IMG/VR virus record: IMGVR_UViG_3300006805_000021
Span: 1-27,740 of that record
Strand: one strand, 5' to 3'
Length of the DNA stretch: 27,740 nucleotides
Source: a virus
Shown: one piece after another, positions 3,574 to 26,044 of the stretch
How positions within the stretch are numbered: the stretch's first letter is position 1
How the letters are laid out: every line of letters begins with the position of its first letter
Made by a program: the position numbers and the translations under genes
The notes under the pieces: generated by a model
What the model was told of the DNA's origin: nothing
The model's database searches: none
The model's input: only the letters and a program-made list of their open reading frames with translations

Positions 3574-4731
3574 TCAGGCAAATAGGTCGTTGGCCAACGT
3601 CCTGTATTCCGGGTTTTGCTCATCCGCGTGGTAGTACACGCTGGTAATGGCAAGGCTACAGTGCCCGGCTTGGTCTTTGGTCGCCACCGGCGAAGTTTTG
3701 CGCGTGTGCAAGGAAATGCCTGTGTCCTTCCACGAATACCAGGTCAGCCCGGAAATATCGCCCACCAGCAGCCCGTCGGCGTGCAAGCGCTTCAAAATGC
3801 GTGCATGGCGCTTGTACGGGCGAAGCTCATCAATAGGCCGCGGCGCCGGCTGCATTACAGCCGTGGCGCCATCCCCTACCCTGCCAAACAGGTAGTAGTT
3901 TGCCGGGCACCGATCAAAAACCCCGTCCCGGAAGTAGTGCATCACGCTGGCCGGTATGGTTTTCACCTGCCGGCGCCACGACTTCGCGTTACCTTCCTTC
4001 ACCGTCACCGTGCCGGCGCCCAGATCGAAGTCTGCAAATTTCAATCGGCAAATTTCCACGGGCCGTATGTAGCAAAAAAATTGCAACAGGACGCCGCGAA
4101 ACAGCCAGTAGTCGGTCTGTTCAATGTACGCGGCTACCGTCCGGCGTTCCTCATCGGTGAACGGGCGGCGTAGTTTTTCTTCATTGCGGACGGTCTTGAT
4201 TTTTGCCCATGGGTTTTCCTGCACCGTTTCCCGCTCCACCAGTTCGGCCCACAACGCCCGGAGCGTGGCCAGGTAGTTGTTTAGGGTGCGCCCCCGGTAC
4301 TTTTTCGCGGTGCTCAATTGGTCCCAGTACGCTCGTGCGTGCCGTCGGCCAAAATCCGAAATGCTGGAGTGTGCATAGTGGTGCGCGGCGCACCACTTCA
4401 AAAATGACCGGCACACGGTTTCGTATTTCCTGACGCTGTTTTTTCGAGGTAGCCGGCGTTTCATGCTCAAAGCAAACTCGACGGCATCGGCTACCGTGGT
4501 GGCAGATTTGTCCGGCACCTTGGGAGCCTTCGGAGTGGCAAAAACTTCGATGGATTCAATCAGGCGGGCGGCAACTTCTTCCCGAAGGCGCAAATCTTCA
4601 ATTTCATTTAGGCGGAACCCTTCGCGGTGCCTGGTTTCGGCCCCGGTGGCCGGATCGTAGCGGGTGTAGTCAATGACCCAACGCGTCCCCTTTACCAGCC
4701 GCGCCCGGGCAACAAATGTTTTTTTTGCCAT
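3574..4731 (-). CDS. int: Tyrosine recombinase (phage integrase)
   Basis: From ATG 4731 the protein has 385 residues; an upstream TTG at 4755 would add eight. It has an N-terminal AP2/Arm-like region, a SAM-like core-binding domain (about 78-175) and a catalytic domain (about 185-385). Visible catalytic positions are Arg223 (YIRPVEICRL), Lys250, box II 331-336 (WYSWKD), His357 (AGHCSL) and nucleophile Tyr366 (SVYYH). At box II the canonical HxxR appears as YxxK (Tyr332, Lys335), a variant I associate with Bacteroidota integrases of the YSxKxTG type. It most likely integrates and excises the element. I see no clear IntI-type insertion, so it need not be the enzyme that moves the cassettes. Confidence 0.93.
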   Translation of the reverse strand: MAKKTFVARARLVKGTRWVIDYTRYDPATGAETRHREGFRLNEIEDLRLREEVAARLIESIEVFATPKAPKVPDKSATTVADAVEFALSMKRRLPRKNSVRKYETVCRSFLKWCAAHHYAHSSISDFGRRHARAYWDQLSTAKKYRGRTLNNYLATLRALWAELVERETVQENPWAKIKTVRNEEKLRRPFTDEERRTVAAYIEQTDYWLFRGVLLQFFCYIRPVEICRLKFADFDLGAGTVTVKEGNAKSWRRQVKTIPASVMHYFRDGVFDRCPANYYLFGRVGDGATAVMQPAPRPIDELRPYKRHARILKRLHADGLLVGDISGLTWYSWKDTGISLHTRKTSPVATKDQAGHCSLAITSVYYHADEQNPEYRTLANDLFA

Positions 4732-4978
4732 ACCATGTTTGGCATTCCGTGGCAATTTTTTGATTTATTGCTACAGAAAAGCGCTTTAGTATAGCGTAAT
4801 TGATTGAATAAGTGTTTTTTACAACGTGGGGAGGATGAGGGGGCTCGAAAAAATACCACACTCCCCCACCCTACCCGATGCACACAAAAACAACACATTA
4901 CGCCATTGCATTTTTATAATTTGTGGCAATTTTTGGCACAGATATTTTTATTTGTGCAAATAGGCTGCACACGATCCG
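4732..4978. other. Intergenic region upstream of integrase; candidate attP/regulatory region
   Basis: This 247-bp AT-rich gap between the integrase start and the Xre gene contains no convincing ORF. It holds a G-rich/C-rich dyad (GTGGGGAG at about 4826 and CTCCCCCAC near 4860) and A/T tracts. Attachment sites often lie beside the integrase, but with no host junction I cannot identify the att core. I found no TAnnTTTG element for leftward transcription. Confidence 0.35.
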
Positions 4979-12355: not shown

Positions 12356-12547
12356 ATGAAAAACAAAGAAATTATCCAAATCCTTGCCGACGCGCTGGAG
12401 GAGCACATTTGCGCACATGGGAATTTTAGCGCCGCTGACCTTCAAGCCCTACACCATGCCCAGACGATTACCGGTAAAAGGTATGTGCCGGAAGTACAGG
12501 CGGCAGTAGATAAATTTATTGAAGATTGGAAACCAATTGAAAAATAA
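12356..12547 (+). CDS. 63-aa helical protein (unknown)
   Basis: I chose ATG 12356 over an upstream in-frame TTG at 12338, which would overlap the previous gene. The product is helical (EIIQILADALEEHICAH, then VPEVQAAVDKFIEDWK). Its TAA stop lies inside the first hairpin repeat (TAACT), so it is the gene immediately upstream of the cassette-like array. Confidence 0.6.
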   Translation: MKNKEIIQILADALEEHICAHGNFSAADLQALHHAQTITGKRYVPEVQAAVDKFIEDWKPIEK

Positions 12548-12601
12548 CTGAATGCGCCAACGCCGGGCGCGACGCATAGCGAGGCTGTACGGGGGCGCAA
12601 T
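12544..12601 (+). repeat. Hairpin repeat 1 (R1; attC-like, variant type)
   Basis: It begins ATAACTGAATGCGCC, and TGCGCC pairs with GGCGCA at its other end. Bases 12551-12599 are identical to 14042-14090. Unlike most other copies it lacks the closing AGTTA, so the outer core is incomplete. It contains the stop of the upstream 63-aa gene. Confidence 0.7.
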
Positions 12602-12633
12602 GCCTTCGGGCCAATCAGCCCGAGGCGGCGCAA

Positions 12634-13059
12634 ATGGTTCAGCGCGTCATCGAACAACGGAAAATGCAGACACGCGCCGCTTCCGTTCCGTTCGAGGTTT
12701 CCGGTATCGCCCGGCCCGTTTCCGTTTCCGTTCGATCCGTGCCGGAAACACGCCCGGCGTACTGGACGGCGGAACGCGCCAAGGCCGCAGCGCTTGCGGT
12801 TTCCGTGGTCGGCATCGGCGGAACAGTAACGGGGCTTGTCATCATTCCGGCTCTTGTCGCTGCGCTGTCCGCGCTCGCTTCCGTTGCCGTTGTGGTTGCG
12901 CCGTGGCTGATCGGCGGCGGAATTGTTTTTTCCGTTATCCGTGCCGCCATGTCTGGCGAAAAAAAAACGTCCGAACCGTATCCGGCAAAGCCGGTCGGAA
13001 ACGTGTACAACGTTTACATCGGCGAAGGGCAAACAAACGTTCACACAAACACGCCTTGA
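12634..13059 (+). CDS. Two-TM protein of the cassette array (unknown)
   Basis: The protein has 141 residues. A Thr/Ser/Val-rich N-terminus (PVSVSVRSVPETRP) is followed by two adjacent hydrophobic helices (ALAVSVVGIGGTVTGLVIIP; ALSALASVAVVVAPWLIGGG, running on to IVFSVIRAA) and a polar C-terminal tail containing NVYNVYIGEGQTNVHTNTP. The tail's NVYIGEGQ stretch may be a beta hairpin. Codon use is strikingly CG-rich (CGTTCC, TTCCGTT repeats) compared with neighbours, hinting at a separate origin. Function unknown. Confidence 0.6.
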   Translation: MVQRVIEQRKMQTRAASVPFEVSGIARPVSVSVRSVPETRPAYWTAERAKAAALAVSVVGIGGTVTGLVIIPALVAALSALASVAVVVAPWLIGGGIVFSVIRAAMSGEKKTSEPYPAKPVGNVYNVYIGEGQTNVHTNTP

Positions 13060-13061
13060 AA

Positions 13062-13388
13062 ATGGGAATCCTGTACTTGATGGTTCACTTCCCTTTTTTG
13101 ATTTTTGTCAAAATCGGCATCACCGGCAAAAGTGCAGAACGGCGGGCGAAGCAGATTGACCGCGCCGTGTTCGGGTTCCCCGTGCCGGTTATGGTGATGT
13201 TCCTGCCGAACGTTCGCAGCATTGAACAGGCTTTGCACCGGCTTTTTTCCGGCCTGTCTGTGCGGTTCTACCGTGGCGACGGCTCTACCGAATGGTTTTT
13301 TATCCCTGCCGGGCTGCCCGTGTTCGCAATGGGCGTGCTATACTGGTGGGGCGTTTACGAGGCTTTTTGTATATTTGTACAATGGTGA
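13062..13388 (+). CDS. T5orf172/MUG113-like (GIY-YIG superfamily) protein with C-terminal TM
   Basis: From ATG 13062 (2 bp after the previous stop) the product has 108 residues. It shows FVKIGITGKSAERRAKQID near the start, EQALHRLFSGLSVRF in the middle and GSTEWFFIP near the end. That order (KIG-x-T, R..Q, E..lH..F, EWF) is the signature of T5orf172/MUG113 domains related to GIY-YIG nucleases. A hydrophobic C-terminus (GLPVFAMGVLYWWGVYEAF) suggests membrane association, unusual for the family. It could be a nuclease or DNA-binding accessory protein, possibly in inter-virus competition (inferred). Confidence 0.65.
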   Translation: MGILYLMVHFPFLIFVKIGITGKSAERRAKQIDRAVFGFPVPVMVMFLPNVRSIEQALHRLFSGLSVRFYRGDGSTEWFFIPAGLPVFAMGVLYWWGVYEAFCIFVQW

Positions 13389-13453
13389 CCGCACTACTTT
13401 TTTTCCTGCTCATGTGGGCATTGGCCCAAATTATTAACACGCAACGCAGATAA
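13382..13453 (+). CDS. 23-aa TM micropeptide
   Basis: ATG 13382 overlaps the previous stop codon. The product MVTALLFFLLMWALAQII plus NTQRR is a single hydrophobic helix with a basic tail. Its TAA lies inside repeat R2 (ATAACT). Tight coupling and composition favour a real micropeptide, but it is very short. Confidence 0.4.
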   Translation: MVTALLFFLLMWALAQIINTQRR

Positions 13454-13513
13454 CTGAGGCTTTCCCGCCGTGCAAGGTGTAAGAAGCATTGGCGGCCATG
13501 CGGGGTTATTCGG
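13450..13513 (+). repeat. Hairpin repeat 2 (R2; attC-like)
   Basis: Outer arms are ATAAC and GTTAT (13505-13509). Inner CCGCC/GGCGG closes a loop GTGCAAGGTGTAAGAAGCAT. The core end GTTATTCGG opens the next cassette and is 8/9 complementary to CCGCATAAC at the start of R3. Confidence 0.75.
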
Positions 13514-13536
13514 ATTATTTACAATAAAATTATTAA

Positions 13537-13767
13537 ATGATGGATATTAAAAGAATTGAAGCAGCAGCCCAAAAGTGGGCAATAGATAACAAGCGCAAAT
13601 TTCCACACCTGACGATTCAGGAATTTATTGCTGGGGCATTGTGGGCTTTAAGTCAGGTCGAAGCCACCGAAAATACTGAGGCTGTTAAATGCAAAACCTG
13701 CGGGAGTACCGATCTTTTTCTTGCACACCAAAAAGGCCGGTGTAACGATTGCGGGGCAACTGTTTAA
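13537..13767 (+). CDS. Small zinc-ribbon protein (cassette gene)
   Basis: The protein has 76 residues. An N-terminal helical part (RIEAAAQKWAIDNKRKFPHL) is followed by a C-terminal zinc ribbon CKTCGSTDLFLAHQKGRCNDC (Cys x2 spacing at both knuckles). It is the only gene between R2 and R3. Small zinc ribbons of this type often bind nucleic acid or proteins; a specific role cannot be assigned. Confidence 0.7.
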   Translation: MMDIKRIEAAAQKWAIDNKRKFPHLTIQEFIAGALWALSQVEATENTEAVKCKTCGSTDLFLAHQKGRCNDCGATV

Positions 13768-13772
13768 TTTCC

Positions 13773-13838
13773 GCATAACTGGCGCTTTCCCGATGTGCAA
13801 CCGCGTAGGGAGCATGGAAGGGAAAGCGGGGTTAGGCG
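13773..13838 (+). repeat. Hairpin repeat 3 (R3; attC-like)
   Basis: Outer TAAC/GTTA, then an 8-bp inner stem GCTTTCCC/GGGAAAGC, and loop GTGCAACCGCGTAGGGAGCAT. The right core GTTAGGC (13831-13837) matches the attC core consensus GTTRRRY exactly. Confidence 0.78.
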
Positions 13839-13865
13839 ATTTTTAAACCTTTAAAATTAAATAAC

Positions 13866-14039
13866 ATGGCAATTGCTTTCCGTGCAGGGCAAAAATTTAG
13901 ATTCGCCAACGATCCATCAGTTTACACATTTATATCAATCATATTTGAGGATAATGAGCCAATCATTATTTACGCAAACGAAGATGAAGAAGAATTCGAG
14001 GCTCACGGCTTTTATTTATCTGATTTAATTTCTGCTTAA
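13866..14039 (+). CDS. 57-aa acidic protein (cassette gene)
   Basis: ATG 13866 to TAA 14037-14039, the only gene between R3 and R4. The product begins MAIAFRAGQKFRFANDPSVY and has a strongly acidic centre (ANEDEEEFEAHG) and a hydrophobic end (FYLSDLISA). The beta-rich start (GQKFRF..DPSVYTFISI) suggests a small barrel. The stop codon is embedded in the TTAACT of R4. Confidence 0.62.
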   Translation: MAIAFRAGQKFRFANDPSVYTFISIIFEDNEPIIIYANEDEEEFEAHGFYLSDLISA

Positions 14040-14095
14040 CTAATGCGCCAACGCCGGGCGCGACGCATAGCGAGGCTGTACGGGGGCGCATTACC
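14036..14095 (+). repeat. Hairpin repeat 4 (R4; attC-like, variant type)
   Basis: TTAACT followed by TAATGCGCC pairing with GGCGCATTA (14041-14049 with 14085-14093, 9 bp). It shares 49 identical bases with R1 (12551-12599). Like R1 it lacks a terminal GTTA, ending ATTACCG instead. R1 and R4 form a subfamily, possibly recombination-defective. Confidence 0.72.
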
Positions 14096-14140
14096 GTATT
14101 TGAAATTTTCCTTTGTTTACAACGAAAAAAAATCATTGCT

Positions 14141-14482
14141 ATGAGCCTATTCAAATTCAACGGGCAAGTTACTTGTCACGAAACATCAATCCGCCTTAAA
14201 GATGGCGGATTTAAACAATTTGTTGACACGTCACATAGCGTGTACTACAACTTGGAAGGCGAAATTGAAATAGACCCAATTAGCGCCAAGAATCTTTTTT
14301 TTGCGCCGTCAGCGATTGATATTCTGAATGATTTGCATGGTTGGGCGCTGACATCCACCGATCGTGGGTGGATTTGCTACTATTTGCCAGACGGTTTAAC
14401 CGGTTTTCACGGGCACGAAAACCCCGCCGAGGCTTGCGCTATGGCATGGTTTTTTGAACAGGCGCATGACAAAAATAAATAG
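14141..14482 (+). CDS. Hypothetical cassette protein (113 aa)
   Basis: Beta-rich N-terminus (LFKFNGQVTCHETSIRLKDG) and a C-terminal half with GWALTSTDRGWICYYLPDG and a short helix ENPAEACAMAWFFEQA. It resembles small phage accessory proteins in general, but I do not recognise the family. It is the sole gene between R4 and R5. Confidence 0.62.
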   Translation: MSLFKFNGQVTCHETSIRLKDGGFKQFVDTSHSVYYNLEGEIEIDPISAKNLFFAPSAIDILNDLHGWALTSTDRGWICYYLPDGLTGFHGHENPAEACAMAWFFEQAHDKNK

Positions 14483-14504
14483 AAAAAAATATGGACATTT
14501 CGAT

Positions 14505-14568
14505 ATAACTGAATGCTTCGCCGCCGTTAGCGGCATACGGCGAATGGACGGCGAAGCAGAGTTATTGG
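14505..14568 (+). repeat. Hairpin repeat 5 (R5; attC-like, best palindrome)
   Basis: ATAACT/AGTTAT outer arms and a perfect 10-bp inner stem TGCTTCGCCG/CGGCGAAGCA enclose a GC-rich loop containing GCCGTTAGCGGC. The closing GTTATTGG (14561-14568) is perfectly complementary to CCAATAAC at the start of R6, i.e. to the 3' end of the same cassette. Confidence 0.82.
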
Positions 14569-14638
14569 AACAGTGGTGAAAATGGAGATCACGGCCAGAC
14601 CATGTAGGCAGTTGTTGGTTCGAGTCCAACCTGTTCCA
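14567..14638 (+). tRNA. tRNA-like sequence with degenerate anticodon arm
   Basis: A perfect 7-bp acceptor stem (GGAACAG/CTGTTCC), a 4-bp D stem (GTGA/TCAC) with GG in its loop, a canonical T arm (GTTGG-TTCGAGT-CCAAC) and discriminator A are visible. The anticodon arm is abnormal. Only GCC/GGC pairs well, the loop is 6 nt when two weak pairs are allowed, and no T33 precedes a plausible anticodon. At 72 nt it is about one base short. It is probably a decayed or non-decoding tRNA-like element; no isotype is assigned. It starts 5 bases after the R5 crossover point. Confidence 0.5.
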
Positions 14639-14654
14639 CAAAATTAATATCAAT

Positions 14655-14921
14655 ATGAAAGACCCAACAGCATACAGTGATTACGGCAGAATGATGACCG
14701 GGTTTAATTCCAGCATTGAGCATTCAACATTTGGCCATTGGTCTAACCCGGAATACGCGCAACTAATGCAGGAGTCTGAATTGCAGCGTGGAACCTGCCG
14801 TTGTTGCGGCGAACAATGGCAAGATGATTTTTGGAGCGATGAATCAATGACGCTTTGTCTTAATTGTTTTGATCCTGAAAATCAAAATCAGGCCGGAACT
14901 AATACTGATTTGCCATTTTAG
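14655..14921 (+). CDS. Small zinc-binding protein (cassette gene)
   Basis: The protein has 88 residues. The C-terminal half has CRCCGEQWQDDFWSDE and LCLNCFDPE, giving a CxxC...CxxC zinc site. The N-terminus is Tyr/Met/His-rich (AYSDYGRMMTGF, HSTFGHW). It is the only protein gene between R5 and R6 and ends 7 bp before R6. Confidence 0.66.
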   Translation: MKDPTAYSDYGRMMTGFNSSIEHSTFGHWSNPEYAQLMQESELQRGTCRCCGEQWQDDFWSDESMTLCLNCFDPENQNQAGTNTDLPF

Positions 14922-14924
14922 TTG

Positions 14925-14990
14925 CCAATAACTGAGGCATGAACGCCGTGCAACCGTATAGGGCGCATGGCCGGCCATGCTGAGTTATCT
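14925..14990 (+). repeat. Hairpin repeat 6 (R6; attC-like)
   Basis: ATAACT (14928-14933) pairs with AGTTAT (14983-14988); inner GCATG/CATGC; loop GTGCAACCGTATAGGGCGCAT, closely like R3. The left outer sequence CCAATAAC matches the opening bases of the preceding unit. Confidence 0.8.
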
Positions 14991-15006
14991 GTTTTAATTT
15001 TTATCT

Positions 15007-15780
15007 ATGAAACGATTTATCGCATTTTCAGGAGGCGTAGAAAGTACGGCAATGTGTCTGCTTTACGGCAAGGGAGCGACGGCGGTCTTTACCGATACCG
15101 GCAGCGAACATGCCGAAATGTACCGGCGCATTGACAAGGTGGAAAAGGCGCTAATCGAAAATCATAAAGGCGATTTTCAACTTGTCAGGCTTCGCGCCAG
15201 CGTGACAGCCAAGGGCGAAAAAGTTGATAGTCTTACCGCATACGTTGAGCGAATGCAGTTTTTCCCGTCTGGCGCGGATCGCTTTTGTACGGCCCGCTTC
15301 AAAATAGCGCCGCTCGACAAGTTTCTGAAAGAGCAGGGAGAAAGCGAATTATTGATAGGATTGAATGCAGACGAAACCGACCGCGAAGCCAATCACGGCC
15401 TTTTGGCAAATGTGCAATACCGCTACCCATTGCAGGAGGATGGCTACACGCGGCAAGACTGCGTTGATCTACTCGAAAAGCATGGCCTGAAGCCAGATTT
15501 CCCGGCATACATGAGGCGCGGCGGCTGCATTTTCTGCCCGTTCAAAAGCAAAAAGGAATACGCGGCAATGGTACACCTTGCGCCGGAAGAAATAAACCTT
15601 GTTCGGGTTCTGGAAGAAAAAGCGCAAGACAAACGCGGCAAGTATTACCGCATCCGGCATAATATGCCAGCAATGCGGGATTTCATCGAAACCGAAAAAA
15701 ACAATCTGTTCGGCGACCTTTCGCCATACTACGACGCGAGCGACGAGCAATACAGTTGTGGCGTTTTTTGTCACAGATAA
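15007..15780 (+). CDS. PAPS-reductase-family (PP-loop) protein with Cys cluster
   Basis: The protein has 257 residues. The PP-loop SGGVEST at 8-14 binds the adenylyl group, and TDTGSEHAEMYRRID and LIGLNADETDR fit the adenine-nucleotide alpha-hydrolase fold. The C-terminus has RRGGCIFCPFKSKKEY and a terminal YSCGVFCHR. These four cysteines could bind an Fe-S cluster, as in DndC-like or phage-type phosphoadenosine phosphosulfate reductase homologues. The reaction is probably ATP-dependent activation or thiol transfer on a nucleic acid or nucleotide; the substrate is unknown. It is the largest gene of the array and lies between R6 and R7. Confidence 0.8.
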   Translation: MKRFIAFSGGVESTAMCLLYGKGATAVFTDTGSEHAEMYRRIDKVEKALIENHKGDFQLVRLRASVTAKGEKVDSLTAYVERMQFFPSGADRFCTARFKIAPLDKFLKEQGESELLIGLNADETDREANHGLLANVQYRYPLQEDGYTRQDCVDLLEKHGLKPDFPAYMRRGGCIFCPFKSKKEYAAMVHLAPEEINLVRVLEEKAQDKRGKYYRIRHNMPAMRDFIETEKNNLFGDLSPYYDASDEQYSCGVFCHR

Positions 15781-15818
15781 CTCCACTTACACGCACTCGC
15801 CCCTAACAATAAATAGGG

Positions 15819-16064
15819 TCACTCCTCTTGCGCTACGCCCTCCCCATATCGGGGGTAGTAGTCGAACACAATCGGCACTTCCCGGCTGTCAATGTGCAGG
15901 GCCGAGCGCATGACCCCAACGGACAGGCCAAGCGATGTGGCAGCCTTGATTATCTTCCACCGCGTCACGCCGTCAGGACATTCGATGTCAACGGCACGCC
16001 CGAACAGGTGCATAGAGCCAACCGACCCGCCCACGCGGCGGTTTTTACCACAATAGCGGCCGAT
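15819..16064 (-). pseudogene. Truncated M15-type peptidase fragment, antisense in cassette
   Basis: On the minus strand the open frame contains GSMHLFGRAVDIE, which matches the zinc-binding SxHxxGxAxDI motif of M15_3 peptidases. Downstream, SALHIDSR supplies the second HxD. The N-terminal half of the family (catalytic-fold start, usual length about 120-140) is absent: an in-frame TAA lies at 16065-16067 and the only candidate start is GTG 16034. It runs opposite to every other gene in the array. Most likely it is the remnant of an endolysin-type gene trapped with the PAPS-reductase-like gene between R6 and R7. Confidence 0.55.
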
Positions 16065-16102
16065 TTAAAAACGTGCCTTAACCAATATTTTAATTCTGTT
16101 CC

Positions 16103-16168
16103 CGCATAACTGGTGCTTCGACGCTGTGCAAGGCATACGAAGCATAGCCGGCGAAGCGGAGTTAGCCG
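16103..16168 (+). repeat. Hairpin repeat 7 (R7; attC-like)
   Basis: ATAACT (16106) with AGTTA (16160-16164); inner stem GCTTCG/CGAAGC; loop GTGCAAGGCATACGAAGCAT. The closing GTTAGCCGA is 8/9 complementary to TCGACTAAC at the left end of R8. Confidence 0.8.
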
Positions 16169-16196
16169 ATCCACAACACACATAAAATTCAATAAA

Positions 16197-16544
16197 ATGG
16201 AAGAAAAATTTGAAATCTGGGCCTTAGTCGAATTGATGGGCCACAACAAAATCGCCGGTCGCGTGACTGAACATAAATTCGGCAATCAGTCTATGCTCAG
16301 GGTTGATGTTCCTGCAGTCGGGAGCCTGCCAGCATTCTCAAAAATAATTGCAGTGAACGCAGTCTATGCAATTAACCCGCTCACCGAGCAAAATGCAACT
16401 GAATACGCCGCACAACTGAAAGCCAAGCCGCTGGATGTATGGGATATGCAAAACCTGTTTACCGAACGAATCAAAGAACTGGTAAAGAAGGGGCAACTTT
16501 TACAGCCTGAGTTGGCCGAAACAAACGACGATTTAGATTTTTAG
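16197..16544 (+). CDS. Conserved phage hypothetical protein (115 aa)
   Basis: The sequence pattern EIWALVELMGHNKIAGRVTE, then LRVDVP and a KIIAVNAVYAINPLTEQNA motif, is one I recognise from many phage genomes as a conserved protein of unknown function. Typically it reads 'mGH.r.aG.v.E ... lrvdvP ... aiY.i.p.tEe'. The C-terminus is helical and acidic (NDDLDF end). It is the only gene between R7 and R8. Confidence 0.72.
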   Translation: MEEKFEIWALVELMGHNKIAGRVTEHKFGNQSMLRVDVPAVGSLPAFSKIIAVNAVYAINPLTEQNATEYAAQLKAKPLDVWDMQNLFTERIKELVKKGQLLQPELAETNDDLDF

Positions 16545-16546
16545 TT

Positions 16547-16613
16547 TCGACTAACTCAAAGCCCGCCGAAGTCCAGACGATAGTCTGGATTTTCGGAGGG
16601 CGGCAGTTATACG
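16547..16613 (+). repeat. Hairpin repeat 8 (R8; attC-like, second subfamily)
   Basis: TAACT (16552-16556) pairs with AGTTA (16605-16609). The arms CAAAGCCCGCCGAA and TTCGGAGGGCGGC pair with small bulges (extrahelical bases), and an inner TCCAGAC/GTCTGGA hairpin forms the tip. The arm sequence is shared with R9 at 20069. Bulged arms of this kind are the classic attC feature. Confidence 0.78.
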
Positions 16614-16978: not shown

Positions 16979-17084
16979 GCCCGTTCCGATCAGTTTGGCA
17001 CGGGTATTTTTTTTCAACAAATGGCCATGTAAAAGAAGTGTTTGCAAAAACGACACTCAAAATAATTTTTTTTTACCAAAATAA

Positions 17085-17370
17085 GTGTGCAAGTGTAGCA
17101 AAACCAGTTTTAAAAAAATAAATAATTGAAAATCAAATAGTTAGTCTGGTACACTTTAGGCTACACTTTAAATGTTTCTTTAATGGAAAGTGTAGCCTAA
17201 AGTGTAGCAAAAAAACAGGGTTTTGGCCCTCGACAGCCGGGTTGCTACACTTTTTGGTGGTACACTTTGAAAAGTGGTACACTTTGAAAACGCAAAGTGT
17301 AGCAAGCCGCAACAAAAAGAACCACAACGAGTTACAAGGCCAAAAATGGGGTTTGCTACACTTGCACACT
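17085..17370. repeat. Iteron-like cluster; candidate replication origin
   Basis: Ten copies of TACACTT or its complement AAGTGTA occur at 17091, 17150, 17162, 17187, 17199, 17246, 17261, 17278, 17294 and 17357, usually as G(C/G)TACACTTT. They include a perfect 20-bp inverted repeat (17150-17169 with 17187-17206, 17-bp spacer) and a perfect 17-bp tandem direct repeat (17257-17273, 17274-17290). The flank 17105-17140 is very A/T-rich. No ORF is credible. Such an array beside an AT-rich tract is typical of an iteron origin or a multi-operator control region. The binding protein is unknown. Confidence 0.65.
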
Positions 17371-17486
17371 TTGTTTGGGGAAAATTTGAGTTTTTTGTTT
17401 TTCCCGATTTTCATTTTTCAACAAAAGCCAACAACACATTGCATTTTCAAAAACTTTTCCTGAAAAATATTTGCGCACTCGAATGG

Positions 17487-20068: not shown

Positions 20069-20131
20069 GATTAACTCCAAGCCCCACGAAGCGCGACATT
20101 AGGAGCATTTTCGGGTGGCGACAGTTATACA
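20069..20131 (+). repeat. Hairpin repeat 9 (R9; attC-like, paired with R8)
   Basis: TTAACT (20071-20076) with AGTTA (20123-20127); arms CCCCACGAA/TTCGGGTGG; loop GCGCGACATTAGGAGCAT like the other copies. Arm and core (GTTATAC) match R8, 3.5 kb away. R8 and R9 therefore bracket the structured element, the iterons, and the glycosyltransferase genes. Confidence 0.75.
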
Positions 20132-20254: not shown

Positions 20255-20761
20255 ATGAAAGTGAACGTTGGTGCATTTATTTTGGTCGGTGGTCTCCTCT
20301 GGTGGCTTATGCGCCAAAGTGGCCGGGTTGACGTCGGCACGCCCGCCATCAGTAGCCTACGCCTTGAGGGCGGCGGCGTTCGCATCAATTTGCGCCTTCC
20401 CATCATCAACCGGTCAAACATCGCCGTGCCCATTCAGGGCTTTTTGGGCGTGCTGCTCTACAACGGCTCCCAGATCGGTACTACCACGCTCACGGCACCT
20501 ACCATTGTACAGCCTCGCGCCGTATCGGAACCAGAGTTTTCCACATTCGTATCCGTGGCCAGCGTGCTGACCAGTACCCCGCTACTTTCCCTGCTCAACT
20601 CCCTTGCACAGAAATACCTCGGCGTGTCCATTCCGGGCATACCGGCCAACACGCCCACCGATTCCAACAGTTTGCAAAAATATATGTCCGGCCTGCGCAT
20701 GCGCGGCACGCTGTACGCTGCCGGGCTGGCCCTCGACATTGACGAACAACTGACCACATGA
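20255..20761 (+). CDS. Membrane-anchored LEA-2-like protein
   Basis: The protein has 168 residues. Residues 5-19 are a TM helix (VGAFILVGGLLWWLM). The following domain has VRINLRLPIINRSNIAVPI, LLYNGSQIGTTTL and a PRAVSEPEF turn. That is the beta-strand pattern of LEA type-2 (LEA14/WHy) domains, small immunoglobulin-like folds. It is the first gene of the late module, joined by ATGA to a transglutaminase-like gene. A membrane-bound virion or assembly factor is plausible. Confidence 0.6.
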   Translation: MKVNVGAFILVGGLLWWLMRQSGRVDVGTPAISSLRLEGGGVRINLRLPIINRSNIAVPIQGFLGVLLYNGSQIGTTTLTAPTIVQPRAVSEPEFSTFVSVASVLTSTPLLSLLNSLAQKYLGVSIPGIPANTPTDSNSLQKYMSGLRMRGTLYAAGLALDIDEQLTT

Positions 20762-21411
20762 CACGTCGCCGCCTGAACGCCGCCGCGCGCCAGGCTGCAA
20801 CGTGTACACCGGCGCACATCATAAAACCAAGCCCCCAAACCGAACTACTTCGGCACCGCAACGGCGGTACCGACGACATCATTGAGGCAATACTGTACAT
20901 GGACTCGCACAGCTCCGAGTGGATCGTGACCGACCGCGTGGAATGCCTTCGCGGCGCCACGGACTACGACACGATGCGCAACGTGTGGGGATTCGTGCGG
21001 AACAACCTGCGATACCGTGCCGACCGGCCTGGGCATGAGCGGGTAAAAAGCCCCGGTGCCCTGTTTTCGGCAGGTGTAGGCGACTGCAAGAGTTTCAGCA
21101 TAGCCGAAGGGGCCATCCTGCACGCACTTGGGTACCGGTACCGCTACCGGTTCACGGCCTACGAGCCGGGCGATTTTTCCCATGTGTATGTGGTGGCCAC
21201 CACGCCCGACGGGCAAGACGTGATACTGGACGCAGTACACACCGCATTCGACGAGGAAGTGCCGTACCGCAGGAAAAAAGACATACGGCCCGAAAAATCG
21301 GGCATACAAGCCCTGCCAACCAATCCAAACCAACAACCCGGACAGCCGCGCCGGTGGCCGGTGCTCCGGTTTGTCCTTGGCGCATGGCTGGCCTACTTGA
21401 TACTTAAATGA
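20758..21411 (+). CDS. Transglutaminase-like cysteine protease with C-terminal TM
   Basis: The protein has 217 residues. The papain-like triad is visible: Cys110 in GVGDCKSFS, His142 in FSHVYVV and Asp158 in VILDAVH, as in bacterial transglutaminase-like (TGc) proteins. The C-terminus VLRFVLGAWLAYLILK is a TM anchor. Such enzymes cleave or cross-link proteins; here maturation or cross-linking of capsid proteins, or a cell-entry function, are options. It overlaps both neighbours by ATGA. Confidence 0.75.
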   Translation: MTRRRLNAAARQAATCTPAHIIKPSPQTELLRHRNGGTDDIIEAILYMDSHSSEWIVTDRVECLRGATDYDTMRNVWGFVRNNLRYRADRPGHERVKSPGALFSAGVGDCKSFSIAEGAILHALGYRYRYRFTAYEPGDFSHVYVVATTPDGQDVILDAVHTAFDEEVPYRRKKDIRPEKSGIQALPTNPNQQPGQPRRWPVLRFVLGAWLAYLILK

Positions 21412-22562
21412 CACGCATCAGCACCATACACGGGATTCCGTTCAACGAGTTTGCCGACCGCAGCGCCAACGTGGCGACTGCAAAGGAATTTTTTCCTTAT
21501 CTGTCCATGACGGCGGGCGAACTCGAACTTTCCCTGCTGCGCCAACGCGCCCAGATATTCCGGCAGTTTGCGCCGGAAATGGGCATTTACTCGGAGGCCG
21601 TTCGAATGATTGACCGCGCCCTGAACGAAGGCCCCGCTGGTGTAAACTACGTCGGTGTGGTGCCGGATGAATTGCAGCCGCTTGCCAAGATACTTACCCA
21701 GGCAACCCACAACAACAAGCCGGCCAGCCGCGCCGGGTTCTTTGGCCGCACATCGGCAAAAGTTGGTGAAATCATCCCCGCCACCCAACGCCGCCAACAA
21801 TGTATCGAAACCAAAATGGCCCAATACGGCCTGCCAAAATCAAGACTGACACCGCCCAACAAATTTCCCAGTCCAAACGAGTATTCAGTTTGGGAAAAAA
21901 CCGTAAAACCATTGTTGGTCAGCGTGACGGCCACCTGCTACCGGCAATTTGAAATCGAAAAAATCCTGAACAGCGGCGTAGAGCGCAGCGGGCACCACCT
22001 GCTGTACAAATCGCTGCCGAAGGATTACCAGATACCGGGCGACGTGCGCACCAAACGCATACTGCACGGCACAGGCGTGGAGGGCATGGCCTTGGTAGGC
22101 GAGATTGACAAAAGCCTGATGTACCTCTGGGTAGAAAATGGCATCATTCAGCGCAACACCGAAAACAAAATAGGCCCCCTTTCGAGCGTGACAAGTAGTA
22201 TCTACTTGGCCCCCGACCCGCAGCAAGCGGTGGCCGCATTCAATGCCTGGGGCGCTACCCAGCCGACGGACAAGTGGCAAAAGATGAAAAGCGGAGCGGC
22301 CCTAAACGGAAAAATTTCCATTGACCCCATCACCGCCGGCGTGATACTCGGCGTGGCCGCCGCTCTCGAGGCCGCATTTGGATTCCTGAAATCAATCCGT
22401 GAACAAAAAGACTATGCAATGGTGCAAGCCCAAGGATTCGGCACGGAGGCTTTCAGCGCATCGCAAGGCGACTGGCTCGGCAATCCTGACGCAGGTAGCG
22501 GCGGATTTAGCACCGGTACCCTGCTGCTGCTGGGCGGTGCGGCCCTATTGCTTTCAAAATAA
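21408..22562 (+). CDS. Large late protein with C-terminal hydrophobic segments
   Basis: The protein has 384 residues and is not recognised. The N-terminal half is helical (GELELSLLRQRAQIFRQF), the middle contains YLWVENGIIQRNTENK, and the end carries ITAGVILGVAAALEAAFGF and a final TM segment FSTGTLLLLGGAALLLSK. The TM at the extreme C-terminus parallels its neighbours. It is coupled to the transglutaminase-like gene. A membrane-associated structural protein (for example a vertex or membrane-linker protein) is a reasonable guess only. Confidence 0.62.
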   Translation: MTRISTIHGIPFNEFADRSANVATAKEFFPYLSMTAGELELSLLRQRAQIFRQFAPEMGIYSEAVRMIDRALNEGPAGVNYVGVVPDELQPLAKILTQATHNNKPASRAGFFGRTSAKVGEIIPATQRRQQCIETKMAQYGLPKSRLTPPNKFPSPNEYSVWEKTVKPLLVSVTATCYRQFEIEKILNSGVERSGHHLLYKSLPKDYQIPGDVRTKRILHGTGVEGMALVGEIDKSLMYLWVENGIIQRNTENKIGPLSSVTSSIYLAPDPQQAVAAFNAWGATQPTDKWQKMKSGAALNGKISIDPITAGVILGVAAALEAAFGFLKSIREQKDYAMVQAQGFGTEAFSASQGDWLGNPDAGSGGFSTGTLLLLGGAALLLSK

Positions 22563-22617
22563 AAACAAACTGCCGGGTAGCGCCCGGTTCACTCAAACAC
22601 AAACACAAACAAACACT

Positions 22618-22899
22618 ATGGCAATCGCAAAGAAAAAAACTGCACGCCGTAAAAGCAGCACGGGCGCTACCAAGCGTAAGCGGAAAACCCGGGTTGGCGA
22701 GGCCGCGAAAAATGTAAAAATCGCCGGCCAAAACTTCAGCAAATCCTCCTGCCACTCTTCCAAGACGGAGGCCAAAAAGCGTGCGGAAAACGTGCGCACG
22801 AAGGGCAACCGGGCACGAGTGCTGAAAAACGGCAAGACCTATTGCGTGTACACCGGCGGCAAAAGCAAAGCGCTGACGCGCCGCGCCAAACGCGCATGA
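22618..22899 (+). CDS. Lys/Arg-rich DNA-binding protein (histone-like)
   Basis: The protein has 93 residues with very high Lys/Arg content, opening MAIAKKKTARRKSS, then KRKRKTRVGEAAKNV, and ending KSKALTRRAKRA. A central short beta motif (VLKNGKTYCVYTGG) interrupts the basic tails. It probably neutralises and condenses the genome inside the capsid or before packaging. The leader is a repeated ACAAAC tract directly before the ATG. Located immediately before membrane and capsid genes, it fits a minor virion protein. Confidence 0.72.
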   Translation: MAIAKKKTARRKSSTGATKRKRKTRVGEAAKNVKIAGQNFSKSSCHSSKTEAKKRAENVRTKGNRARVLKNGKTYCVYTGGKSKALTRRAKRA

Positions 22900-22939
22900 C
22901 CAAACACTTTTCTTACACAAACACAAAAATTTGTCCATC

Positions 22940-23323
22940 ATGTGTGGATGCAAAATTTCTGGAAAAATGGCAAAAAAACGCATCAGCGGTTTTGGCAGCA
23001 TCGGCAGTACCGCCGGCGAATTGCTGCCCATCGTGGCGGGCTACGCAGCCGGCCAAATCCTCACCAAACAACTCACGTTCCTTTCGGCCAACCCCACCAC
23101 GGGCAACCTGGTGAAAATGGCCGCCGGGCTTTTCTTCGCGGGCAGTCGCGGATTCATGGGAGGTCTTGCCAAGGGCGTAGCGCTCAACGGCGCCGCCGGA
23201 TTTGTCATGCCCGTGCTCGAGCAGTCGGGCCTCGGCCTGTTGCCGCCCGGCATGCCGGCCCGCTACATCGCGGGCGTACCGGAACCGGATGCCGTCAACA
23301 CCGGGGAAACTATGGGTTATTAA
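22940..23323 (+). CDS. Glycine-rich membrane protein of the virion module
   Basis: From ATG 22940 the product starts MCGCKISGKMAKKRISGFG (127 residues); ATG 22967 is an alternative. It has two hydrophobic glycine-rich stretches (AGELLPIVAGYAAGQIL; AAGLFFAGSRGFMGGLAKG) and a third around LNGAAGFVMPVLEQSG. It sits directly upstream of the probable capsid gene. Small abundant membrane proteins in this position are typical of viruses with an internal lipid layer, which is an inference. The MCGC start resembles MCNC of the gene at 24200. Confidence 0.62.
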   Translation: MCGCKISGKMAKKRISGFGSIGSTAGELLPIVAGYAAGQILTKQLTFLSANPTTGNLVKMAAGLFFAGSRGFMGGLAKGVALNGAAGFVMPVLEQSGLGLLPPGMPARYIAGVPEPDAVNTGETMGY

Positions 23324-23370
23324 CCCTATGAACAACTTTTTTTTTTCACACAAAAGCACATCGCAAAATA

Positions 23371-24105
23371 ATGGCTGCACAAATCCTTCCTGCAACCCAA
23401 GGCCGCGCGGACTACCTGCGCGTTGGCGAAGCGGTGGCCAGCATGCTGGGCATTGACTTCAACACCTTCAAAAACTCCTACAAGTTCTACGACGACGAGC
23501 TTCGGCTGATTACGCCGCTAAGCCCCTCGCAGAGCTCGTACAACTTCAACCCGGTGCGCGGCATTGACACCAACTTGCCCACGTCCAGCCTCATGGACAA
23601 ATCCGACCTGTTCGCCGTGACCGGTGTGGGCCTCATCTTCACCCGGGCGACGTACGCCAGCGCCACCGGCGCATTGTCGGCCTACGGCAACTACCCGGCC
23701 TACACCTACCCGTACGCGGCGGTGTTTTCCGGCTCGAACGAGCAGGCCGGCCTCTTGAACATCGTCAACGGGCAGGTGGCCCTCGCGGTCAACTCTGACC
23801 AGCAATGGAATATCCCCGCCGACCGCATGGTGTACGCCGATCAGTACATCAATGCGCAGGTGCAAACCATCCAGTACGGCGGCACCAACGGCAAGCAGGG
23901 CATTCTCGACCTGAATGCAATCGTAATCATGGACGGTGAAAATCAGAACGTGATTACGGTGAACCTCCCGGCTGGTGGCACCTTGACCAACATTGACGGC
24001 AACACCAACGCCACCACGCGCAACATCCTCGGCGTTCGCCTTATCGGCTTCCGCATCCGCAACGCGGCCAATGGCGGATTCACCAACGGAAGCTGCCGGG
24101 TGTAG
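23371..24105 (+). CDS. Probable major capsid protein
   Basis: The protein has 244 residues, no TM and no signal peptide. It has few charged residues and is rich in Asn, Thr, Gly, Ala and Tyr (YNFNPVRGIDTNLPTSSL, GNYPAYTYPYAAVF, NLPAGGTLTNIDGN), typical of abundant beta-sandwich shell proteins. A helix-rich N-terminus (YLRVGEAVASMLGIDFNTF) precedes beta-rich sequence. It is the only large soluble protein in this part of the cluster, and a strong terminator directly follows it, which favours high independent expression. No HK97-fold feature is seen. A jelly-roll shell is my best guess, from composition and context only. Confidence 0.55.
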   Translation: MAAQILPATQGRADYLRVGEAVASMLGIDFNTFKNSYKFYDDELRLITPLSPSQSSYNFNPVRGIDTNLPTSSLMDKSDLFAVTGVGLIFTRATYASATGALSAYGNYPAYTYPYAAVFSGSNEQAGLLNIVNGQVALAVNSDQQWNIPADRMVYADQYINAQVQTIQYGGTNGKQGILDLNAIVIMDGENQNVITVNLPAGGTLTNIDGNTNATTRNILGVRLIGFRIRNAANGGFTNGSCRV

Positions 24106-24139
24106 TCACTTCGGAGGAGGCATTTTTTGAAATATCCAC

Positions 24140-24175
24140 ACGGGCGGCGGCCATGCGCTGCCGCCCGTATTTTTT
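24140..24175 (+). terminator. Strong terminator after the capsid gene
   Basis: A 9-bp stem ACGGGCGGC/GCCGCCCGT with an 11-nt loop is followed by ATTTTTT. It lies 35 bp after the capsid stop inside the late gene cluster. Partial termination here would give the capsid mRNA excess over downstream genes. Confidence 0.92.
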
Positions 24176-24199
24176 CAAACACAAACACACCACAACATT

Positions 24200-24634
24200 A
24201 TGTGCAATTGTGTCCACAGATGTTTTGAGCTGCAGGAAATTACCACCGCTGCGGCCCAAAACGCCCTGCCCGATGATACGCGCATTCGCACCAACTTGGT
24301 GACGAGCATACAGGTGCAGCCGTCCGATCCGACCGGATCGCGCACCTACCTTTCGCCGAACGGCAAAACGCTGGCATCGTGGTCGGTGCTGAACTCGTCG
24401 TACCTGTATGTGTACAACCAGAACGGCACACGCCTTGCAATCCTGCCCCTTTCGCAGATCGTGCGCACCACCGAAGATCAGGAACCCATGCGGGTGAGCT
24501 GGCAACAGATTGACCCAACGCAGAGCTTTCTCAAAGTGAACACAAGCGCAGCCGGCTACAATGCCGCCCACGTCTTTGTGCTCAACTGGGGGCTGGCTTG
24601 TGATGCCTGCGGCATCACGCCGAATAATTTGTAA
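24200..24634 (+). CDS. Small virion-type beta protein (possible vertex/penton)
   Basis: The protein has 144 residues. The N-terminus is MCNCVHRCFELQ. It then shows alternating strands (RTNLVTSIQVQPSD, YLYVYNQNGTRLAILPL, HVFVLNWGLACDACG), without TM. Directly following the capsid gene and its terminator, with an ACAAACAC leader, it is a candidate minor capsid or vertex protein. Cysteines at both ends (MCNC...C; ACDACG) could bind a metal or form disulfides. Confidence 0.55.
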   Translation: MCNCVHRCFELQEITTAAAQNALPDDTRIRTNLVTSIQVQPSDPTGSRTYLSPNGKTLASWSVLNSSYLYVYNQNGTRLAILPLSQIVRTTEDQEPMRVSWQQIDPTQSFLKVNTSAAGYNAAHVFVLNWGLACDACGITPNNL

Positions 24635-24656
24635 ACGTTACCACCACACCACGGCC

Positions 24657-25433
24657 ATGACCATAACCAGTTTCGAAAGTTTGCAAAAATGGTTTTACGG
24701 GCAACAGCGCAACGACGACGAAGTGGCGGCGCATTGGAACCTGTACGGCACGCGATTCGGGGAAACCGAAAAGCGTGTGTCATTCAATACCACGATCAAC
24801 GACAAAGACGGATCGTTTTCGTACCTCGCGGAAACCATTCGGCAATTGAACAACCCGGACGGTTCAACGTTCCGCATTCAAGTTTTCCCCAAGGGGAAGC
24901 CGAACAACCCGACGGGAAACGTATATGTACAAATTTTCGAAAAATCTTCGGCTGCCAATTCGGTCATGGCTCCCACTTCGGCTTCTGGCGCTGCCATATC
25001 CGGGCTACCGCCCGGCGTTGGCAGCATCCAGGAGTATGTCAATAAGGAAGTGGAAATGGCCATGTTGAAAAAGGAAGTGCAGGACTTGAAGGACGCGCTT
25101 TCACAGCCGAACAACGGATGGGAACGCGCTGTGGAGACGATCAGCGGAATACCCGGAATAGACAAGGCGCTGCAAGCCCTTGTGGCCGGGCTGGTGACGA
25201 AGTTCAACCCGGGGGCAGCTCCGGCGGTTCAGGCCGCTATGGCCGGAACGCCATCGGTGGCCTATCACGGCGAACACGACGAAGACGACAGCGACGACCC
25301 GCAAACGGTGTTTGCCGAAAACATCAACGCGGCGGCAAACATGCTCCACACCGACCCGCTGACACTTTCCAAAAAAATAAACGCCCTGGTGCAGTCCAAC
25401 CCAGAGGTGGCAAAACAACTGCTAAATGGGTAA
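24657..25433 (+). CDS. Late structural-type protein with coiled coil (258 aa)
   Basis: From ATG 24657 the N-terminal domain is beta-rich (FRIQVFPKGKPNNPTGN, then VYVQIFEK). A flexible Ala/Ser/Pro linker, a heptad helix (NKEVEMAMLKKEVQDLKDAL), an Ala/Pro-rich segment, an acidic stretch (HDEDDSDDPQTV) and a C-terminal helical domain (NINAAANMLHTDPLTLSKKI) follow. Coiled coil plus head domain suggests a trimeric spike or linker protein, or a scaffold. The family is not recognised. It overlaps the next gene by 8 bp. Confidence 0.6.
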   Translation: MTITSFESLQKWFYGQQRNDDEVAAHWNLYGTRFGETEKRVSFNTTINDKDGSFSYLAETIRQLNNPDGSTFRIQVFPKGKPNNPTGNVYVQIFEKSSAANSVMAPTSASGAAISGLPPGVGSIQEYVNKEVEMAMLKKEVQDLKDALSQPNNGWERAVETISGIPGIDKALQALVAGLVTKFNPGAAPAVQAAMAGTPSVAYHGEHDEDDSDDPQTVFAENINAAANMLHTDPLTLSKKINALVQSNPEVAKQLLNG

Positions 25434-25734
25434 CATGCTCAAACTCAAACTGCGGCCCACCACCCTGCCACCCATGACCGCCGACGGCTACATGGTGGAC
25501 GTGGTGGGCGTGGCGGCGATCATTTTCCAGAACACGGGCACCACAAACTGCCATATTTTTAACGGCATGTGGACTATTCTGGCCAATGGCGGCACGCTGG
25601 CCCTGAACGTCACCGAGGATTTGGGCAGCCTCGACGTGCTCGACTTGAGCGTGCAGTTTGTGGGGGCCGGCACCAACCGCCTCGAAATACTCACCCTACG
25701 GCAGGGCAACGACAACAGCACCCTAAATTGTTGA
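25426..25734 (+). CDS. Small beta-rich virion-type protein (102 aa)
   Basis: ATG 25426 overlaps the end of the upstream gene; ATG 25435 is an alternative. The protein is all-beta in pattern (KLKLRPTTLPPMTADGYMVD, VVGVAAIIFQNTGTTNCHIF, DVLDLSVQFVGAGTNRLEIL), with no TM. It looks like a small barrel or spike-base protein. It is unrecognised but clearly part of the late operon. Confidence 0.6.
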   Translation: MGNMLKLKLRPTTLPPMTADGYMVDVVGVAAIIFQNTGTTNCHIFNGMWTILANGGTLALNVTEDLGSLDVLDLSVQFVGAGTNRLEILTLRQGNDNSTLNC

Positions 25735-25738
25735 AAAA

Positions 25739-26044
25739 ATGGCACTTATTCAGGCATGGAACCCGACCACCGGCGGAAGCGGAGGCCAAACGCTGGAATG
25801 GGAGCGCGACCGGGTGGTGGAAACCGACCCATTTTCGGCGGGCTATGCCATCGTGCTGACCGAAACCCCATTGGACGAAAACGCCATCATGGTATGGAGC
25901 AAGGGAATGATCCTCGACACCGATGACTATTCCTACGATTCCGGCACAAATTCAATCATCATCAATTTTTCCGGCGATCCGTCCACCGATACTTCGAACG
26001 GTGAATGGGTTTTTTCGGTAACATATCCCTATGAAGTGGTTTAG
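25739..26044 (+). CDS. Small beta-rich virion-type protein (101 aa)
   Basis: The protein has ALIQAWNPTTGGSGGQTLEW followed by strands ENAIMVWSKGMILDTDDY, SIIINFSGDPSTD and WVFSVTYPYEVV. This repeated beta pattern with Asn/Asp turns is common in fibre-associated phage proteins. Its 3' end overlaps the start of the secreted fibre-like gene (ATG 26031) by 14 bp, so the two are probably co-translated. It may connect the fibre to the particle. Confidence 0.6.
   Translation: MALIQAWNPTTGGSGGQTLEWERDRVVETDPFSAGYAIVLTETPLDENAIMVWSKGMILDTDDYSYDSGTNSIIINFSGDPSTDTSNGEWVFSVTYPYEVV

Follow-up and report, generated by a model that had tools for sequence, protein, structure and literature searches.

Clusters of attC sites lacking an integron integrase (CALINs) have already been described in the phages TJE1, P12002L and PH101 (Qi et al. 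2023, PMC9892861), and integrons of Bacteroidetes have been reported only rarely, an example being Salinibacter ruber (PMC9024848). Strand choice in canonical attC sites depends on extrahelical bases of the R''-L'' arm, and cleavage takes place at the other box, R' (PMC2727003). According to PMC7790495, and to work of Messier and Roy cited in PMC2426708, the additional domain of IntI is the innovation that allows single-strand recombination. Here we describe a cassette array in a virus, IMG/VR record IMGVR_UViG_3300006805_000021, of which we analysed positions 1-27,740 (the window, 27.7 kb with a terminal repeat of 123 bp). Seven attC-like hairpins (12545-16164) each open a small gene cassette and are followed by a distinct docking hairpin. 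We consider it probable that these are integron-type cassettes exchanged at TAA|C in front of a virus-specific docking hairpin, most likely by a recombinase of the host.

Hairpin sites of the array

A preliminary description of this DNA had named eight palindromes, all of which are present about where it placed them; their positions are corrected here. On the plus strand, the attC-like sites occupy 12545-12605 (R1), 13451-13508 (R2), 13776-13834 (R3), 14037-14096 (R4), 14506-14564 (R5), 14929-14987 (R6) and 16107-16164 (R7), and the docking (terminal) site R8 ends the array at 16552-16609. R1 and R4 are 96% identical and both have lost the right-hand GTTA box; on covariance model R1, R1 scored 58.4 bits and R4 56.7 bits. 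The GTTRRRY core that had been pointed out is present in R3, which ends in GTTAGGC, but in its strict form it fails in the other sites. Three features had been overlooked: a degraded docking site (TAACTCC..., 15778-15800, plus strand), recognised by its terminal motif and its position, a ninth site (R9, 20072-20127, plus strand), and the fact that R8 and R9 form a class of their own.

A degenerate pattern derived from the palindromes gave five matches in the window and none in 100 dinucleotide shuffles. The viral contig L005 is colinear with the window and its primase is 73% identical; the 14 sites of the two genomes align without large gaps. Their consensus has an outer stem formed by TAACT and AGTTA, an asymmetric spacer, a stem of five pairs that covary, a CG pair that hardly changes, a single bulged base and a loop that varies. 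The TAAC...GTTA boxes pair as an imperfect hairpin, with compensatory changes in 9 of 17 pairs. The matches to attC models predicted in the preliminary description were obtained with covariance models of our own, the E-values of which are rough: across 980 kb of viral sequence, most of it unrelated, the 14-site model matched only those 14 sites, and it then picked up independent arrays in other contigs. An Rfam search of the window returned no attC match. An R''-L'' arm with two or three extrahelical bases, together with an unpaired central spacer, was not found in these sites, which have one bulged base and an asymmetric spacer.

The degenerate pattern led to eight further IMG/VR contigs and eight contigs of metagenome-assembled genomes (MAGs), confirmed with the covariance model, and a docking-site pattern to seven viral contigs, including three additional ones. 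Some of the array-bearing viral contigs are fragments, and some of the phage-like contigs come from MAGs with mixed labels. This arm-based search worked, whereas exact loop-based patterns had no match in the viral or genome collections; a generic TAAC/GTTA arm scanner was dropped as too noisy on AT-rich phages. Plasmid and phage similarity searches with the array yielded only short, marginal matches.

Exchange of whole units before a docking site

Three comparisons between contigs define the mobile unit. L100 and L104 have a common backbone, 93.7% identical on the left up to TAACTG and 96.5% on the right from the docking site on, and carry different single cassettes in between, from TAAC to TAAC. 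L093 and L094 have a C5-methyltransferase cassette in common that includes its upstream site and runs from within the hairpin to TAACT; the site that follows it is different, as are the neighbours on both sides. Cassette d of L005 corresponds to L095 1831-2137 exactly from TAAC to TAAC, in another context. In all three pairs a site is transferred along with the gene downstream of it, which places the crossover at TAA|C when read in gene sense, equivalent to G|TT on the complementary strand. The whole-unit exchange at G^TT among relatives that had been anticipated is thereby borne out, with breakpoints exact within the common TAAC bases.

The mobile viral unit is thus C-[attC-like hairpin]-GTTA-gene-TAA, that is, a site with the gene downstream of it. 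The earlier view of the cassettes as a gene followed by its attC was abandoned, since the cassette common to L093 and L094 carries the upstream site, and no viral unit has a gene upstream of and co-directional with its own attC, the order seen in host arrays. The polarity of the bulge agrees with this. Read in gene sense, the validated TJE1 sites have their C and A bulges on the left arm and the viral sites have theirs on the right arm, so that the one-base bulge of the latter stands on the mirror arm relative to both host sites and validated canonical sites; in R3, R9 and the second TJE1 site the automatic alignment of the bulge was not clean and it was read by eye.

The ends of each unit also match each other. 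The bases after GTTA at the unit start are complementary to those before TAAC at the unit end, often over 9-10 bp including TAAC, while there is no such match between the two flanks of a given site. In nine units of the window and L005, 42 of 63 positions were complementary versus 24 with permuted partners (P=4e-5). The mean was 4.5 of 6 versus 2.63 for 32 viral units (P=2e-5) and 4.59 versus 2.55 for 17 host units (P=2e-5). This complementarity looks like the trace left by circular cassettes with paired R boxes, as in integrons, and it led to the hidden unit end behind the phosphoadenosine phosphosulfate (PAPS) reductase-like gene at 15778, the degraded docking site.

R8, R9 and the last site of L005 belong to one class, the docking class, which is last in 15 of 15 arrays versus 1 of 32 other sites (Fisher 2e-11). 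The single exception to this rule, in L139, is two docking-type sites in a row. No docking-class site was found in 150 host genomes. R8, previously counted as one more cassette attC, is therefore a virus-specific docking site. Two loci are occupied differently in the two colinear genomes: locus A holds the array in the window and none in L005, and locus B, after a glycosyltransferase gene, holds five sites in L005 and the lone R9 in the window, followed by the same kind of terminator. To judge from this orthology, R9 represents an empty docking locus that is filled in L005. Because the bulge polarity, the breakpoints and the placement of the docking site all agree, we conclude that the viral genes are inverted relative to their own attC and that insertion of new cassettes takes place upstream of that site.

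Candidate enzymes and alternative explanations

As had been stated before, the virus has no recognised integron integrase: its own recombinase reaches 29.6 bits on the integron-integrase model, the cut-off of which is 265. We did not find an integrase gene in the same element as a viral array, several of these contigs being fragments. The virus is probably a phage of Saprospiraceae-like Bacteroidota, an indirect assignment. In the family to which a Saprospiraceae-titled MAG belongs, attC-like sites occur in 20 of 150 genomes, versus 1 of 294 other genomes of the class. In the host arrays the large genes stand in canonical order, opposite to those of the viral arrays. A host tyrosine recombinase lies upstream of the sites, always in the predicted orientation, in 9 of 9 readable loci, which comprise all seven with a homologue of at least 63% identity and more than 3 kb downstream, plus two more. 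At several other recombinase loci the contig ends 0-312 bases past the gene, as repeats would cause. In one host array (L114, contig C28 of MAG G007), the same 2.8 kb cassette occurs twice, 99.65% identical, around a 607-aa gene.

The host recombinase (L114 7696-9420) remains below the cut-offs of the known families, its catalytic domain scoring 223.3 bits on TIGR02249 (cut-off 265) and 212 on the XerA model (cut-off 220). It has a long N-terminal extension and no counterpart of the IntI additional domain (I2 helix region), about 45 residues of IntI1 and IntIA being missing in the alignment, and in a limited tree its clade stands apart from IntI1 and IntIA. No homologue was found at the threshold used in the window, L005 or the other array-bearing viral contigs. 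In MAG G007, a virus-type cassette adjoins host-type cassettes, which suggests traffic between the viral and host cassette pools. The genomic linkage of this recombinase to arrays makes it, rather than a viral enzyme or a canonical IntI, the likely enzyme of the viral arrays.

Other explanations have to be weighed against exchange by a host recombinase. Ordinary gene-then-attC cassettes that a phage had acquired from a chromosomal integron, for which Polaribacter phage P12002L is a precedent, would account for the TAAC...GTTA boxes, the hairpins and the small same-direction genes without an integrase. We nonetheless regard such a canonical CALIN as unlikely: the cassette common to L093 and L094 carries the upstream and not the downstream site, the bulge is on the arm opposite to that of the validated TJE1 sites, a terminal site class would not be expected, and the strict GTTRRRY is confined to R3. 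Our covariance models also miss the records bearing class 1, Vibrio and Shewanella integrons; this and the lack of the IntI additional domain in the host recombinase speak against the earlier assignment of the sites to ordinary IntI attCs.

Movement of the cassettes by the tyrosine recombinase that the virus itself encodes (3574-4755, minus strand) has in its favour that enzyme and array share a genome. The distribution of its relatives mismatches that of the sites, since its closest relative (56%) is in L006, a third relative of the window virus in which no attC-like sites were found, and L005, which has sites, encodes only a 33% relative. It also has little in common with the array-linked host recombinase, with a very long branch and 20% identity at best. 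We rejected it as the cassette enzyme and consider this route quite improbable. Slightly less credit still is due to passive mosaicism, in which the palindromes would be short homology anchors or terminators and homologous recombination or template switching would shuffle the genes. Phage genomes are mosaic and some sites are about 90% alike, but the upstream sites of L100 and L104 have only TAACTG in common at the junction, hardly an anchor, and the complementarity of cassette-specific ends as well as the constant polarity of the bulge would be left unexplained.

Exchange of integron-type cassettes by the host recombinase thus remains the reading we favour, and several points weigh against it. 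The enzyme is not a canonical IntI and is devoid of the domain held essential for integron recombination. The sites have a single extrahelical base where two or three are usual for attC, and the bottom-strand folding energies of several of them are unremarkable. The MAG contigs behind many of the host arrays are fragmented, several phage-like contigs stem from MAGs with mixed labels, and virus and host are linked indirectly. Recombination at the window sites is read from sequence comparisons.

In the mechanism that we propose, units are exchanged through site-specific recombination at TAA|C (G|TT on the complementary strand). The intermediates would be circular single-stranded cassettes, which the host recombinase would excise and insert in folded form, in trans, in infected cells. 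The docking hairpin would serve as a viral attI-like target and remain the 3'-terminal element of the array, with cassettes entering just upstream. Since the gene is inverted relative to its attC, inserted genes would be read with the surrounding viral genes, and expression may occur by read-through from those upstream; the virus could then profit from what the cassettes encode, for instance DNA methyltransferases and PAPS-reductase-like proteins. More broadly, Saprospiraceae would have a second kind of integron, driven by a non-IntI tyrosine recombinase able to recognise attC-like hairpins even though it has no I2 helix. Several different phage lineages would parasitise it by means of a docking hairpin of their own and a separate cassette pool in which the genes are inverted relative to those of the host; for this wider model we see the chances as even.

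Cargo, genome context and known systems

The seven cassettes of the window are all on the plus strand. Cassette 1 (12548-13453) carries, behind R1, a 141-aa protein with hydrophobic stretches (12634-13059) and a T5orf172/GIY-YIG-type protein (13065-13388; Pfam T5orf172, 1.4e-8), and cassette 2 (13454-13778), behind R2, a 76-aa zinc-ribbon protein (13537-13767; below the Pfam cut-off), with 5 of 7 positions complementary between start and end. Cassette 3 (13779-14039) consists of R3 and a 57-aa protein (13866-14039), cassette 4 (14040-14508) of R4 and a 113-aa protein (14141-14482), and cassette 7 (16110-16554) of R7 and a 115-aa protein (16197-16544). Cassette 5 (14509-14931; R5; complementarity GTTATTGG/CCAATAAC) encodes an 88-aa CxxC protein (14655-14921) and the tRNA-like element claimed previously, which is real (14567-14638; Rfam tRNA, 42.5 bits) and has an abnormal anticodon loop; Polaribacter phage Danklef has a similar undetermined tRNA. 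Cassette 6 (14932-15780; R6; complementarity GTTATCTGT/ACAGATAAC) encodes a 257-aa PAPS-reductase-domain protein (15007-15780; Pfam 7.7e-10). Such proteins recur as cargo in L094 and L104, and C5 cytosine methyltransferase domains in L094 (with the homologue in L093) and L098. Behind the degraded docking site, a backbone-gene fragment of another phage (15819-16046, minus strand) resembles the DNA after the docking site of L101 (79% to L101 467-697, there part of a 129-aa open reading frame); arrays may also move with DNA that flanks them.

Downstream of locus A, clustered CTACACTTT / AAAGTGTAG repeats in both orientations are kept in the window (17040-17380) and L005 (15190-15500), a candidate replication origin or set of regulator-binding iterons. 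In the structural region (20255-26044), a transglutaminase-like protein (20758-21411) is the sole recognised product; Pfam and PHROGs revealed no terminase or capsid there, a 244-aa protein tried as capsid gave a predicted local distance difference test score (pLDDT) of 31 in structure prediction without an alignment, and no relatives were found via a 290-aa structural protein. The window virus is possibly tailless. L095 encodes a Terminase_6N large terminase, and therefore at least one array-bearing virus is a tailed phage. Plasmid NZ_CP084417 (L160 6160-7781) carries a truncated member of the Saprospiraceae-type recombinase clade some 110 bp upstream of blaVEB-3, and the junction has GAGTTAGCGG, as in host cassette starts; the covariance models gave no match in this stretch. 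blaVEB may descend from a Saprospiraceae-type array.

Of the integron cassette architecture first proposed for this virus, the architecture itself, the lack of an integrase and the unit exchange at G|TT hold, while the canonical order, R8 as an attC and ordinary IntI attCs do not. In the part of the literature covered, we found no earlier account of these sites as a family, of the docking site, of viral cassettes with inverted genes or of the host recombinase. If our reading is true, phages would load and swap single accessory genes site-specifically via the gene-capture enzyme of their host, and integron-like capture would not need the IntI additional domain.

The chromosomal integrons of Vibrio, Xanthomonas, Treponema and Salinibacter ruber resemble the Saprospiraceae loci in their paired R boxes, recombination at G|TT and arrays beside a tyrosine recombinase. 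They differ in having an IntI, whereas the Saprospiraceae recombinase, below the cut-offs of both the IntI family and Xer, lacks the additional domain, falls outside IntI1 and IntIA and has a long N-terminal extension, and its attC has a single bulge. The phage CALINs likewise combine clusters of attC-like sites with small genes, DNA methyltransferases among them, and no integrase (PMC9892861). The TJE1 sites, however, have canonical polarity and are substrates of IntI1, whereas the sites described here have a polarity inverted relative to their genes and belong to another family, and every array closes with a constant docking site. Phage-borne attC clusters as such are thus known; the docking site, the inverted cassettes and the non-IntI host recombinase appear to be new.

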